Assembly: GCF_029589435.1 (NCBI RefSeq)
Contig: NZ_JARRAG010000002.1
Coordinates: 3,100,001 to 3,164,000 of the forward strand
Reading direction: 5' to 3'
DNA length: 64,000 nt
Source: Paludisphaera mucosa
GTDB taxonomy: Bacteria; Planctomycetota; Planctomycetia; Isosphaerales; Isosphaeraceae
The position numbers and the translations under genes are program-made. Within the stretch, counting starts at the first letter, position 1; the number at the start of each line of letters is the position of its first letter. Positions 36,378 to 43,960 of the stretch are shown here, piece after piece. A model generated the notes under the pieces. It did no database searches, was not told where the DNA came from, and saw only the letters and a program-made list of their open reading frames with translations.

Positions 36378-37010
36378 TCACGAAGGGACGAGGCGTAGCT
36401 CCCACACGGGCTCGCGGAAGGCGACGAATTCGACTCTGCCGAGCCCCTCCGCCGCGGAGGGGAAGACCGGGTCGACGAGGCCGCTCTCGGCCGCCGCGCG
36501 ACGGGTTGTCGATACGCACGGGGCGCTCTTCAGCAAGATCAACCGGGCCGCGCCCAGTCGGACGGCGACGCGGGCCGCGATCGCGTCGGACGTGGTCCGC
36601 CACGAGATCGGCAGGGGGTCGTCGCCCCTCTCGTCGACCTCTTCCAGGTGCCGCCTCGGTGCCAGGATCGGCCGCACGCCCTCGCGCCAGGCCGCGTCCA
36701 GTCCGGCGAAATCGTCGACGACGCGCGATTTCGCCACCAGTCCGCCGAGGACTTCCGCCGTGAGGTCCATCGCCCTCAGGGCGAGGTGATGCGCCAGCCG
36801 TTCGCCGAGGCCGTGCGCCGCGTCGAGCGTCCGCACGGAGTCGGCGGCGGCCCCGCCGCCGGCGATCAGGACGAGCCGGGGCGACCGTCTTTCGAGCAAG
36901 AGGTCGGACGTCAAGAACGCTGCCAGGCTCGCCCTGAGTCCCGGCCAATCGAGCAGGCTGCCGCCGACCTTGACGACGATGACGGGTGATTCTTCAGCTT
37001 TCGAGGACAT
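36378..37010 (-). CDS. amino-acid-kinase-family protein, MfnE-like
   Basis: 210 aa with the amino acid kinase fold: VVKVGGSLLD at residues 12-21, AGGGAAAD, TSDAIAARVAV and LLKSAPCV. In methanogens the MfnE kinase of this family phosphorylates 5-(aminomethyl)furan-3-methanol phosphate to the diphosphate used in methanofuran assembly. This gene is the last of the C1 operon, and its start lies inside the MfnF-like gene (17-nt overlap), so an equivalent step for methylofuran is likely. The family also includes carbamate and acetylglutamate kinases; context decides. Confidence 0.78.
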   Translation of the reverse strand: MSSKAEESPVIVVKVGGSLLDWPGLRASLAAFLTSDLLLERRSPRLVLIAGGGAAADSVRTLDAAHGLGERLAHHLALRAMDLTAEVLGGLVAKSRVVDDFAGLDAAWREGVRPILAPRRHLEEVDERGDDPLPISWRTTSDAIAARVAVRLGAARLILLKSAPCVSTTRRAAAESGLVDPVFPSAAEGLGRVEFVAFREPVWELRLVPS

Positions 37011-38058
37011 CCCCCCGCTCCCCCCCTCGCAGCAGCTCGATCAGGGCGCGGGCGCAGCCGGCCTCGGAGCCGCCCGGGCCCCAGAGGTCGCCGAGGGCCT
37101 GGACCACGCCCCGGGGGCCGACCACCGCCTCGGCGACGCGCCGCGCCAGGAACTCCCCCGAGCCGGAGACGATCGCCGTCGCGGGCTCGCCGATCGTCGT
37201 CGCGCAGGCCCGACGCGCGGCATCGACGAGCCGATCGAGCAGGACGCCGTCCGCGGCCTTCGCCAGTTGCGCCACGTCGTCGGCTGAGCACGACTCCCGA
37301 TCGGTGCAGACCATCCGCGCCAGGCGTTCGATCGACCGGTCCCGGGTCGCGGGGCGGCCGTCGGCGGTGGACGAGTCGTCGGGATCGGCCTCGAGGTCGC
37401 CGATCGTCAGGTAGACGTCGCGCGTGGTCGCGAAGAACTCGGCCGCGAGACCCGTCGGCCTTCCCTGGAAGAGCAGCTCGACCGCCAGGGCGCAGACCGG
37501 CGTCCGCAGCACTCCGGCGTAGACCAGCTCGCCGTTCTGAAGCCGCTCGACGTCCGTCCTCCCCCGAGCCGCGACCCGGCCGCCCACAAGGGGGATGAGG
37601 TCGGTCGTCGTCGAGCCGACGTCGATCAGGATCGCCCGGGCCTCGCCCACGGCCCGCGCGGCGACCGTTCCCAGCGCCAGCCAGTTCGAGGCGGCGGCGA
37701 GCAGCGGCCGACTTCGGATCGACGCCTCGTCATGGAAGCGGCCGTCGGTCCCCCAGAATCGAGGCGGTCGATCCGGCAGCCCCTCGCGCAGGGCGTCGAC
37801 GATGCGCAGGACCCCCTCGCGCTTGGTTTCGAAGCAGTCGCAAAGCTCGGCCGTCATCGTCGCCGCGACACGCTCGAAGGTCGGGAAGGCTGCGGCCAGT
37901 TCGGCGATCGCCCGCCCCAGGCCCGCGGGATCCTTCCAGACCGCGAAGGGGGACGAACGGACGACGCCCGACGAATGCGCGGCCTTGAGGTTCGCGCCCC
38001 CGACGTCGATCGCCAACCAGGACGTCGCCGATGCGAGCGGCCCCCGATCATCCTTCAT
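36994..38058 (-). CDS. H4MPT-linked C1 pathway protein (MfnF-like, actin fold)
   Basis: 354 aa of the hydantoinase/oxoprolinase-related group seen only beside tetrahydromethanopterin genes. It has an AIDVGGANLKAAH phosphate-binding loop near the N-terminus and a second ILIDVGSTTTDLIPL loop in the middle, both typical of the actin-like ATPase fold. In methanogens the related MfnF couples the aminomethylfuran diphosphate to gamma-glutamyl-tyramine. I assign the analogous step here by homology from memory and by context, not by proof. Its start overlaps the ATP-grasp stop by ATGA. Confidence 0.8.
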   Translation of the reverse strand: MKDDRGPLASATSWLAIDVGGANLKAAHSSGVVRSSPFAVWKDPAGLGRAIAELAAAFPTFERVAATMTAELCDCFETKREGVLRIVDALREGLPDRPPRFWGTDGRFHDEASIRSRPLLAAASNWLALGTVAARAVGEARAILIDVGSTTTDLIPLVGGRVAARGRTDVERLQNGELVYAGVLRTPVCALAVELLFQGRPTGLAAEFFATTRDVYLTIGDLEADPDDSSTADGRPATRDRSIERLARMVCTDRESCSADDVAQLAKAADGVLLDRLVDAARRACATTIGEPATAIVSGSGEFLARRVAEAVVGPRGVVQALGDLWGPGGSEAGCARALIELLRGGERGDVLES

Positions 38059-39089
38059 GATTCTCGGCTCCCGATCCGCCCGCAGGCCTCGAAGCGCACC
38101 GGCGCGGCGGCGGCGACGGCCCGCTCGACCCGATCCATCGCTCGGTACCAACGCGACGGGTCGTCGAACGCCGCCAGCCAGGCGTCGGCCAGGAGGCCCG
38201 GGGTTGAGATCCGTCCCAGGCCCACGCAAGACGTCGTCGGCCTCGGGTTGATCTCCAGCACGACGATCCGCCCGCGTTCGGCGTCACGGATGAGATCGAC
38301 GCCCACGAACCCCGCCAGGCCCGGGACCGATTCGACCGCGCGGGCCGCGAGCGAAGCCGCCTCGGGACAATCCACCGGCAAGACCCCGCCGCGATAGGCG
38401 AAACGCCCCTCCGCAAGCTCCATCTCCTGCTCGCCGACGGCGATGAATCGGACCCTTCCGCCGGGGGCGACGAGGAAGCTGACGCTCATGGCCTGGCCGG
38501 GTGCGTATTCCTGGAGAAGCCGGCGCTCGTGCGATCTTCGCTCGTCCGGCCTCTCGATCAGGAAGGTGTCGAGCGATCCAGCCCCGTCGACGGGTTTCAG
38601 GACGGCCGGGTACTGCCAATCGGACGGGTGCGCCTCGCCCGCATCGAGGACCCGAGACCGCGGCGTCGGGACGCCGTACTGCGCGAGATGTTCACCAAGA
38701 GCCGCCTTGTCGGCCGTCAGGGCGACCGCGGACGGCGACGAGCCCAACATGCGGCAGCCTGCAGCGCTGAGCCGCCATGTCAGCTCCTCCAGGACGCCGC
38801 TCGACTCGGGGGCGATGAGCAACGTAGAATCGGCCCGGCGGGCGAGGGCTTCGAGCCGTTCGACCGAGTCGACGACCACGGTCTCCCACGGACCTTCCTC
38901 GGGCGGCAGCCGCGGATCGAGTGCGACGACCACGCGCGTCGGCCGTCCGGCCGCCGCGAATTCGGCGGCCAACGATTGGCGCATCGCGCCCCCCTCGGCC
39001 TCCCACGACGGGGGCAGGGGCTCGCCGGCCATCCCGCCGCCGGTCACATGCTCAAAGATCAAGATCGTCGAGGGACGGGGCGGCGTCAT
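38055..39089 (-). CDS. ATP-grasp ligase, MfnD-like (tyramine-glutamate ligase type)
   Basis: 344 aa with an ATP-grasp architecture: STILIFEHVTGGG at the start, VLKPVDGAGSLDT as the ATP lysine loop and VDLIRDAERGRIVVLEINPRPTTS as the metal-binding end. The opening and the family's appearance next to H4MPT genes match the tyramine-glutamate ligase (MfnD) group of methanofuran synthesis. The start ATG is at 39087-39089, so it overlaps, on the other strand, the start of the HisA-like gene at 39088. The stop overlaps the next gene (ATGA). Confidence 0.78.
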   Translation of the reverse strand: MTPPRPSTILIFEHVTGGGMAGEPLPPSWEAEGGAMRQSLAAEFAAAGRPTRVVVALDPRLPPEEGPWETVVVDSVERLEALARRADSTLLIAPESSGVLEELTWRLSAAGCRMLGSSPSAVALTADKAALGEHLAQYGVPTPRSRVLDAGEAHPSDWQYPAVLKPVDGAGSLDTFLIERPDERRSHERRLLQEYAPGQAMSVSFLVAPGGRVRFIAVGEQEMELAEGRFAYRGGVLPVDCPEAASLAARAVESVPGLAGFVGVDLIRDAERGRIVVLEINPRPTTSCVGLGRISTPGLLADAWLAAFDDPSRWYRAMDRVERAVAAAAPVRFEACGRIGSRES

Positions 39090-39843
39090 GGGGTCGAAGT
39101 TCCAGCTCATTCCCGTGCTCGACGTCCTCGAAGGGAGGGCCGTCCATGCGATCGGCGGCGATCGGGCCCGGTACCGACCTTTGCGAAGCATCTTACACGC
39201 CGGCCACGGCCCTCGGGAACTGGCCCGGGCCTTCCGCGACGTCTTGGGCTTCGCCACCGTCTATCTCGCCGACCTCGACGCCATCACCCAGCGACGAGGC
39301 GAGCCCTCGCTCTACCGCGACCTCGTCGACCTCGGCCTCGATATCTGGGTCGATGCGGGGATCGAGGATCGCGACGACCTCGCCCCCCTGCTCGACGTCG
39401 AGCGGCTCCAGGTCATCGCGGGCCTGGAATCCCTGCGCGGGCCCGACGCCCTCGCCGACGTCCTCGATCGGGCCGGGCCCGATCGCTTGATCGTGAGCCT
39501 CGACCTCCGCGACGGCCGACCGATCACCGCCGCGCCCGATGCGTGGCCCGAACGCGCCGCCCTCGCCCTGGCCCACCGGATCCTCGACATGGGCGTCCGT
39601 CGCCTGATCCTGCTGGACCTCGCGCACGTCGGCCGGGGGGCGGGGCCAGGGACGGATCACCTGCTCGGGCCCCTGCTCCAGGCCCATCCCAGAGTCGAGT
39701 TCACGGTCGGCGGCGGCATCTCGGGCGTCGACGAAGCTGCGGCCTGGCGCGATCGCGGGGCGGCGGCCGTCCTGGTCGGCTCCGCGCTGCACGACGGCCG
39801 CATCGATCGGAATGCCCTGATCGCGATGGACGGCGGCCTATAA
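39088..39843 (+). CDS. HisA-like TIM-barrel protein of the C1 cluster
   Basis: 251 aa resembling HisA (phosphoribosyl isomerase). Both HisA catalytic aspartates are kept: D12 in LIPVLDVLEG and D139 in LIVSLDLRDG. The C-terminal phosphate loops are VGGGIS and VLVGSALHDG. HisA itself belongs in histidine operons; proteins like this one recur in H4MPT clusters of bacteria and archaea, and their substrate is unknown. The gene lies opposite to the operon. Its ATG overlaps the ATP-grasp start (CATG) and its stop TAA abuts the pterin gene's stop. It must use a promoter inside the ATP-grasp gene. Confidence 0.85.
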   Translation: MGSKFQLIPVLDVLEGRAVHAIGGDRARYRPLRSILHAGHGPRELARAFRDVLGFATVYLADLDAITQRRGEPSLYRDLVDLGLDIWVDAGIEDRDDLAPLLDVERLQVIAGLESLRGPDALADVLDRAGPDRLIVSLDLRDGRPITAAPDAWPERAALALAHRILDMGVRRLILLDLAHVGRGAGPGTDHLLGPLLQAHPRVEFTVGGGISGVDEAAAWRDRGAAAVLVGSALHDGRIDRNALIAMDGGL

Positions 39844-40329
39844 GATCAGCTCGACCTCGGCCGACTGGCCGAAGCATTCCTCGACCTCGACGCGGATGGC
39901 CCGGGGGGCGGACCAGCCGCGTTCCTTCATGGCGTCGAGCAGGCGTTCGGCGATGTATCGCGCCAGCAGTTCGGACGTCGTGTTGGCGATCGGCAGGACG
40001 ACGCATTCGTCGCTGGGGAAGCTCCAGAAACGATCGCCGTAGCGCGCCACGAGGTTCGGACCTTCGGCCGCGACGCGGATGAGCGGGCTCTCGGCGGGGA
40101 GCAGCATGCGGTGGTCGAGTTCGTCGGTGATGGCGCGGGTCATGTCGCGGAGCGCGATGAAGTCGACCACGTAGGAGTTGGCGTCCAGATCGCCGTCGAC
40201 TTCCACGGCGGCCCGGTAGTTGTGGCCGTGGATCCTCTCGCAGTGGTCGCCGTCGAACGTGATGAAATGCCCCGACGAGAAGACCAGGTAATCCTTGGTG
40301 ACGCGAACCTTGAAGCGCGTGGCGGGCAC
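39838..40329 (-). CDS. 6-pyruvoyl-tetrahydropterin synthase/QueD-type protein
   Basis: 163 aa from a GTG at 40327-40329 with GAGGGATC upstream; the open frame runs to 40503 but overlaps the CitG-like gene. The T-fold zinc ligands are H21 in SSGHF, H34 and H36 in IHGHNY, and the catalytic Cys30 precedes them. Further landmarks are LDHRMLLP and, at the end, VEVEECFGQSAE. The enzyme converts dihydroneopterin triphosphate to a pterin intermediate; in this cluster, a step toward tetrahydromethanopterin is plausible. Ends tail-to-tail with the HisA-like gene with 6 nt overlap. Confidence 0.83.
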   Translation of the reverse strand: MPATRFKVRVTKDYLVFSSGHFITFDGDHCERIHGHNYRAAVEVDGDLDANSYVVDFIALRDMTRAITDELDHRMLLPAESPLIRVAAEGPNLVARYGDRFWSFPSDECVVLPIANTTSELLARYIAERLLDAMKERGWSAPRAIRVEVEECFGQSAEVELIL

Positions 40330-43102: not shown

Positions 43103-43960
43103 TCAGGAGGGCGAGACGACTTTCAGGGCAGGCCGCGGCGCCGGGGCCAGGATCTCGCCCCGGCCGCCGTTCGCCAGGTCGCCATTGTAGCGGTCGAGGA
43201 CCGCCGAGGACACCGCCGAGGGGAGGTCGAAGCCGCGTTCCGCCAGGTGCGCCTGGTAGAGGGTCAAATATGCGAACGCGAAGCCGCCGGCGTGGGCGAA
43301 GGTGGCCGGGAAGGCCTCGGAGGGGTCGACGGCGAGGCCCAGGAGGATCAGAGTCCCCCGCTTCATCCCCACGCCCGGCGTCGCGCCGACGGGGCCGCAG
43401 GCGAAGATCGTCCCGGCGACCATGCCTCGCCCGAGGCACGCCCCCACGGAGCCGCGGACGGCGATGAGTCCTCGACGCATCTGCAGGCCGACGTCGTTCC
43501 CGGCGGCCCCTTCGACAAGGATCAGGCCCTCGCGCATCCCGAAGAGGCTGCCAGGATAGGCCGCGCCCAGGCCGTCGCCGGCATCGCCCCGGATCCGCAG
43601 CAGGCCCCCACGCATCTCGGCGCCGGCCCAGTCGCGGCACGAGCCGTCCAGCTCGGCCGTCCCGCCCGACATCTCGGCGGCGAAACGGAACCCCGCGTCG
43701 CCGTGGACCCGCAACGTCCCGGTCGACATCCCCCTGCCGATCGCCGAGACGCATCGAAGGTCGCCCTCGAGGACGAGCCTCTCGTCATCAGCCTCGCCCT
43801 CGACGTCGAACAAGTCGCCCAGCTCGGCCGTCGCGTTGCCGACGCGCAGGGGCGTGCGGGCGGCGTCCGTCGACGTCCGCCCGCGAAAGGTCTCGGGCTT
43901 CAGCGGCGAGCCGTCGACCGGAAGCTCGGTCGTCGACCGCCAACGCAGAGTCATCGCCAT
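43103..43960 (-). CDS. fhcC: formyltransferase/hydrolase complex subunit C (FhcC)
   Basis: 285 aa. It is the formylmethanofuran dehydrogenase subunit C homologue, a right-handed beta-helix scaffold with G-x-x-G-x-x-x-G repeats (GTLRVHGDAGFRFAAEMSGG, GGLLRIRGDAGDGLGAAYPG). In the bacterial Fhc complex it holds subunits A, B and D. Start chosen at the ATG at 43958-43960, preceded by GGGGAAGGG; a GTG at 43987 is an alternative nine codons earlier. Confidence 0.92.
   Translation of the reverse strand: MAMTLRWRSTTELPVDGSPLKPETFRGRTSTDAARTPLRVGNATAELGDLFDVEGEADDERLVLEGDLRCVSAIGRGMSTGTLRVHGDAGFRFAAEMSGGTAELDGSCRDWAGAEMRGGLLRIRGDAGDGLGAAYPGSLFGMREGLILVEGAAGNDVGLQMRRGLIAVRGSVGACLGRGMVAGTIFACGPVGATPGVGMKRGTLILLGLAVDPSEAFPATFAHAGGFAFAYLTLYQAHLAERGFDLPSAVSSAVLDRYNGDLANGGRGEILAPAPRPALKVVSPS

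Follow-up and report, generated by a model that had tools for sequence, protein, structure and literature searches.

A spacer-free head-to-head pair of methylofuran-pathway genes in Isosphaeraceae, with a predicted promoter for each gene inside the other

Related arrangements in other bacteria

Three described systems come close to the locus presented here. In an excludon of the long 5' UTR overlap type, polymerase collision or cleavage of the paired RNA makes two genes antagonistic (Sesto et al. 2013; PMC7154746). A non-contiguous operon, such as menE-menC-MW1733-ytkD-MW1731 of S. aureus (PMC7154746), holds a gene of the opposite strand between genes of one pathway. Finally, Methylorubrum extorquens has Orf17, a PF00977 member of unknown reaction; deleting it leaves the organism without methylofuran (PMC8141765).

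Our locus lies in a window of 64,000 nucleotides, the whole stretch analysed, from Paludisphaera mucosa; the genome measures 8.2 Mb, and the named organisms closest to it are Paludisphaera soli and further members of the Isosphaeraceae such as Singulisphaera and Aquisphaera. There, an orf17-like gene and an mfnD-like ATP-grasp gene face away from each other with no spacer between them. We consider it rather probable that they form a divergent methylofuran-pathway pair in which the 5' coding region of each gene houses its partner's promoter.

With the excludon, this locus shares adjacent genes on opposite strands (43 of 43 genomes of the family). Its mRNAs are also predicted to overlap at their 5' ends, each antisense to the other: conserved -10 boxes are so placed that the predicted leaders must overlap. 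It differs in that both predicted leaders start from promoters inside the partner's coding sequence, while the start codons themselves overlap. Moreover, the two genes are thought to act in one pathway, and any mutual exclusion between them would be hypothetical. Like the S. aureus operon, the locus has an opposite-strand gene between genes of one pathway, with overlapping transcription expected; in contrast to it, mfnD, mfnF and mfnE seem to be transcribed from a promoter of their own, and the operon flanking them upstream is in many cases missing. The Methylorubrum protein and the MJ0703-type hisAF_rel proteins (TIGR00734) are, like ours, PF00977 HisA-like proteins encoded beside methylofuran/H4MPT genes. 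The protein of the window scores below the TIGR00734 cut-off, its function is a prediction, and the orientation and promoter arrangement are peculiar to the planctomycete family. We found no published description of this arrangement in methylofuran genes of Isosphaeraceae, and no planctomycete start-site map among the top literature matches.

Gene order, overlaps and conservation of the pair

The minus strand carries fhcA-fhcD-fhcC-mch-mptN-like-citG-like-ptps; the plus-strand orf17 follows, then mfnD-like, mfnF and mfnE-like genes on the minus strand again (Table 1). For the orf17-like protein, the best NCBIfam model is TIGR00734 hisAF_rel, at 90.3 bits against a cut-off of 179.85; HisA (TIGR00007) gives 77.9 bits against 228.95, and a second HisA-like gene is present elsewhere in the genome. 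Invariant residues D12 and D139 align with the two active-site aspartates of HisA. Since this PF00977 member sits among methylofuran/H4MPT genes (mfnD, mfnF, mfnE, mptN-like, mch, fhc), orf17-like is the most economical name. The ATP-grasp protein reaches 73 bits with its best NCBIfam model, MfnD_Meth (NF040722), for a cut-off of 400, and is called MfnD-like only. The pathway-step names of mfnD, mfnE and orf17 thus rest on family models that score below their cut-offs.

Table 1. Genes and predicted elements of the locus, in window coordinates.
Feature	Position	Strand	Evidence or remark
mfnE-like kinase gene	36378..37010	-	NF040622 MfnE 50.7 bits, below cut-off; order conserved
mfnF-like gene, next after mfnD	36994..38058	-	TIGR03123 276 bits, above cut-off; order conserved
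mfnD-like ATP-grasp gene (344 aa), divergent from orf17	38055..39089	-	ATP-grasp_3 103 bits, preATP-grasp_3 66 bits
Possible -35 box TCGACT	38801..38806	+	Consensus scan; weak, not conserved in family
Predicted -10 box TAGAAT of orf17 promoter	38825..38830	+	Within mfnD codons 87-89; Ser written as rare TCT
Predicted region transcribed from both strands, ~345 bp 5'-to-5' overlap	38837..39183		Inferred from the two -10 boxes
CATG, two overlapping divergent ATG start codons	39087..39090	both	Sequence; in phase in 24/43 family genomes
HisA/HisF-related TIM-barrel gene, orf17-like, 251 aa	39088..39843	+	PF00977 98.7 bits
Usual family site of mfnD -10 box, orf17 codons 28-30	39170..39175	-	Window reads GGTACC, box lost
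Predicted -10 box TAAGAT of mfnD-mfnF-mfnE promoter	39190..39195	-	Coding strand ATC TTA, rare Leu codon TTA
6-pyruvoyl-tetrahydropterin-synthase-like (ptps) gene, tail to tail with orf17	39838..40329	-	PF01242 79.9 bits

The two ATG codons, 39089..39087 for mfnD and 39088..39090 for orf17, share two bases. Neither start is followed by another ATG, GTG or TTG ahead of the conserved first strand (IPVLD in orf17, ILIFEH in mfnD), so both starts are fixed to within a few codons. In the window, the orf17 frame is open far upstream; a long N-terminal extension is nonetheless excluded by relatives, in which stops close the frame at distances down to 18-50 bp before the gene. At the other end of orf17, its stop TAA (39841-39843) and that of ptps (39840..39838) bring the coding sequences to overlap by six bases. 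This second overlap is not conserved: orf17-ptps gaps range from -18 to +5038 bp across the family, and ptps is missing from the fetched neighbourhood in about half of its genomes. It looks incidental.

The family set comprises 43 Isosphaeraceae-type genomes having orf17, namely 42 relatives and the window. In all of them mfnD and orf17 stand head to head, with protein identities down to 31-34%, and the pair is continued by mfnF and, in most loci, by mfnE; the genes beyond the 3' end of orf17 vary. The spacing from one conserved core to the other is at most 60 bp in 38 of 43 genomes, mostly 38-47 bp, and keeps the same codon phase in 37. Together with the in-phase CATG of 24 genomes, this order and phase exceed what chance would give. 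In several genomes besides those 24, the starts are 1-4 bp from each other, and a real spacer is present in five; the count of 24 for CATG leaves out L034, where the match is spurious because mfnD has stops there. The spacer-free state has been kept through deep divergence (protein end branches ~0.3). We also observe that the shared CATG slides between the two cores, standing 2-9 codons before that of orf17 and 3-15 before that of mfnD, with a total that often stays at 44 bp. In Planctomycetales bacterium 71-10 (L050:4649-6769), the mfnD and mfnF reading frames are continuous over 707 aa, possibly encoding a fused protein.

Outside the family, orf17 is usually not beside mfnD: 38 of 40 fetched loci have no adjacent mfnD, mfnD-like genes occurring elsewhere in those genomes. 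The exceptions, L084 and L085, belong to one other family in the class and carry the pair with a gap of ~35-40 bp. Seven of the 40 loci have orf17 tail to tail with ptps and no mfnD, and this orientation is probably older than the mfnD/orf17 pair.

A preliminary description of this DNA had reported both overlaps, which are read directly from the sequence, and had pointed to the orientation in relatives as a check, which the head-to-head pair passes throughout the family. It had also depicted orf17 as an inverted gene locked into an operon. Minus-strand genes do flank it; an insertion is unlikely, as the occurrence of orf17-ptps without mfnD in other families indicates that the conserved unit is the mfnD/orf17 pair and that orf17 was probably not dropped into an operon.

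Predicted promoters within the coding sequences

The lack of a spacer leaves the partner gene as the only place for each promoter, barring transcription that arrives from a more distant start; it also rules out a bidirectional promoter between the genes. A plain sigma-70 two-box search upstream of the starts gave little (6.5 versus 6.3 in shuffled sequence for orf17, 7.3 versus 6.5 for mfnD). Across the family, nine genes were scanned on both strands (7,686 hexamer positions), and two sites stand out: codon 87 of mfnD, -10-like in the direction of orf17 in 27 of 43 genomes, and codon 28 of orf17, -10-like in the direction of mfnD in 18 of 43. No other position exceeds 5 of 43. Because the genomes are related, these counts overstate independence. 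Within the genus of the window, only 2 of 14,478 positions are -10-like in six genomes out of six, and they are the two predicted promoters.

The orf17-facing box reads TATAAT, TACAAT, TAAAAT, TATGAT or TAGAAT on the plus strand of mfnD codons 87-89 (exact TATAAT in 16 genomes) and lies ~240-290 bp before orf17 across the family; all six genomes of the genus have it. A tree for which these columns were left out requires 16 or more changes of amino acid 88 in MfnD, yet tyrosine is always written TAT there (16 of 16), cysteine TGT (6 of 6), histidine CAT (5 of 5), leucine CTT (3 of 3), serine TCT and arginine CGT. Synonymous-site analysis flags codons 87-88 (z ~6); odd synonymous use is also seen at other mfnD codons. 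A good box is absent in 11 of the 38 spacer-free genomes. In the window, predicted transcription would begin near 38837 and yield a leader of ~250 nt. The orf17 promoter is thus most likely located inside the ATP-grasp gene.

The usual mfnD-facing box is GATAAT or CATAAT, at orf17 codon 28, where synonymous-site analysis flags codons 28-29 (z ~4). It is absent in 20 of the 38 spacer-free genomes, which is partly explained by a shift in the genus of the window: there the box has moved 21 bp upstream and reads TA[AGT]GAT in six of six genomes. Its versions TAAGAT, TAGGAT and TATGAT are written with the rare codons TTA, CTA or ATA; TTA, used at the box in four of the six, accounts for 8 of 1,842 leucine codons. 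The predicted mfnD start falls near 39183, for a leader of ~94 nt. In four genomes with the orf17-facing box (L037, L038, L042, L043) neither version of the mfnD-facing box, and no mfnD promoter, was found. Altogether, mfnD, mfnF and mfnE appear, from the conserved box, to be served by a promoter of their own.

The boxes are absent from the loci compared as controls. The orf17-facing box is found in none of 30 unpaired mfnD genes of other families, and the mfnD-facing box in none of 40 orf17 loci outside the family, although their GC content is lower. The five members of the family that have a spacer show neither box (for the orf17-facing one, Fisher p = 0.0045 in a test that ignores the tree, on which the spacer changed only twice). 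The family alignment yields no conserved -35 and no extended -10 element. Among the RNase P RNA genes of the family, roughly every second locus carries a TAnnAT (TATAAT-like) box at 16-20 bp upstream, together with a weak -35, so promoters of this type are ordinary in these genomes. Comparison of the region with Rfam gave no match.

We infer with good support that the -10 boxes are promoters, hence that the 5' ends of the transcripts overlap; the reciprocal embedding of the promoters is, as an architecture, probable and computationally well supported. The two promoters would face each other ~360 bp apart (38825-38830 on the plus strand, 39195-39190 on the minus strand), with both start codons between them. 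As antisense, the leader of the orf17 mRNA would cover ~84 codons of mfnD from the start codon onward, and that of the mfnD-mfnF-mfnE mRNA the first ~32 codons of orf17.

The preliminary description had expected the orf17 promoter within the ATP-grasp gene, with transcription antisense to its neighbour; the conserved box supports this location, and from it the predicted transcript would indeed run against the 5' end of mfnD. As for a separate promoter of the MfnD/E/F-like genes, which it had raised, the evidence points to one, with its site corrected to the inside of the HisA-like gene. This position makes the antisense overlap reciprocal and places it at the 5' ends.

Possible role of the overlap and alternative readings

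Antisense overlap of bacterial transcripts is commonly written off as noise. In this pair, two -10 boxes in coding sequence, kept through many amino-acid changes and absent from unpaired homologues, provide evolutionary evidence for reciprocal embedded promoters. The overlap might act through polymerase collision or RNA pairing, in an excludon-like mutual dampening that would set the ratio of the two enzymes. Such a regulatory effect, which the preliminary description had envisaged as a conflict or as antisense RNA control, is a tentative proposal, which we hold at less than even chances. A fuller version is a little less likely still: an excludon kept family-wide, where opposing transcription would set the ratio or timing of methylofuran synthesis and where the MfnD sequence would be shaped by its neighbour's promoter. 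The pair offers a clean test case, as either promoter can be abolished by synonymous mutations that leave both proteins intact, and it suggests a general route to embedded promoters in divergent pairs from genomes alone.

A neutral origin is at least as likely as a regulatory role, and we give it an even chance. The spacer would have eroded by chance in an ancestor and forced the promoters into the neighbouring genes, leaving an antisense overlap of no regulatory role. L084, L085 and the g18 clade keep a spacer of ~35-70 bp without boxes, which suggests that the spacer-free state arose by shrinkage; at the 3' end of orf17, the stop overlap likewise varies freely. Against neutrality, an insertion of a few bases would relieve the constraint, and yet the spacer-free state has outlasted deep divergence: this is weak evidence for selection on the overlap. 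Either way, the promoters would be embedded reciprocally.

The remaining readings dispute the promoters themselves. Were the locus a non-contiguous operon, transcription of the minus-strand fhc...ptps operon upstream would run on through the inverted orf17 into mfnD-F-E. The flanking of orf17 by minus-strand genes on both sides in the window would agree with this, as would the failure to find a terminator-like site between them. The conserved mfnD-facing box inside orf17 argues otherwise, as does the persistence of the pair in the roughly half of the family where the upstream minus-strand genes are not adjacent. On these grounds, we judge read-through from the pterin operon unlikely as the main promoter, and the non-contiguous operon improbable. 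We lend slightly less credence to the idea that a distinct antisense RNA starts from the plus-strand box in mfnD and ends before orf17, the latter then being leaderless or served by an unseen promoter: at ~240-290 nt across the family, the predicted leader is long, and most members have no strong ribosome-binding site, but the scan shows no second conserved -10 box closer to orf17, no terminator-like site lies between the box and the gene, and no known RNA family is present. That the hexamers are by-products of protein sequence and codon bias is very improbable: Asp-Tyr-Thr and Tyr codons do favour such hexamers on the opposite strand, and yet amino acids and codon use predict only 10.1 (mfnD site) and 4.6 (orf17 site) of 43 where 27 and 18 are observed, homologues from other families of similar or lower GC have no boxes, and the boxes have survived 16 or more amino-acid changes and are maintained with rare codons.

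Apart from the pair, a TACAAT hexamer occurs in the sense direction at codon 267, near the end of fhcC (43184-43189, minus strand), in five of the six genomes of the genus. Lying ~93 nt upstream of the probable mch start, it is possibly an internal promoter for mch.
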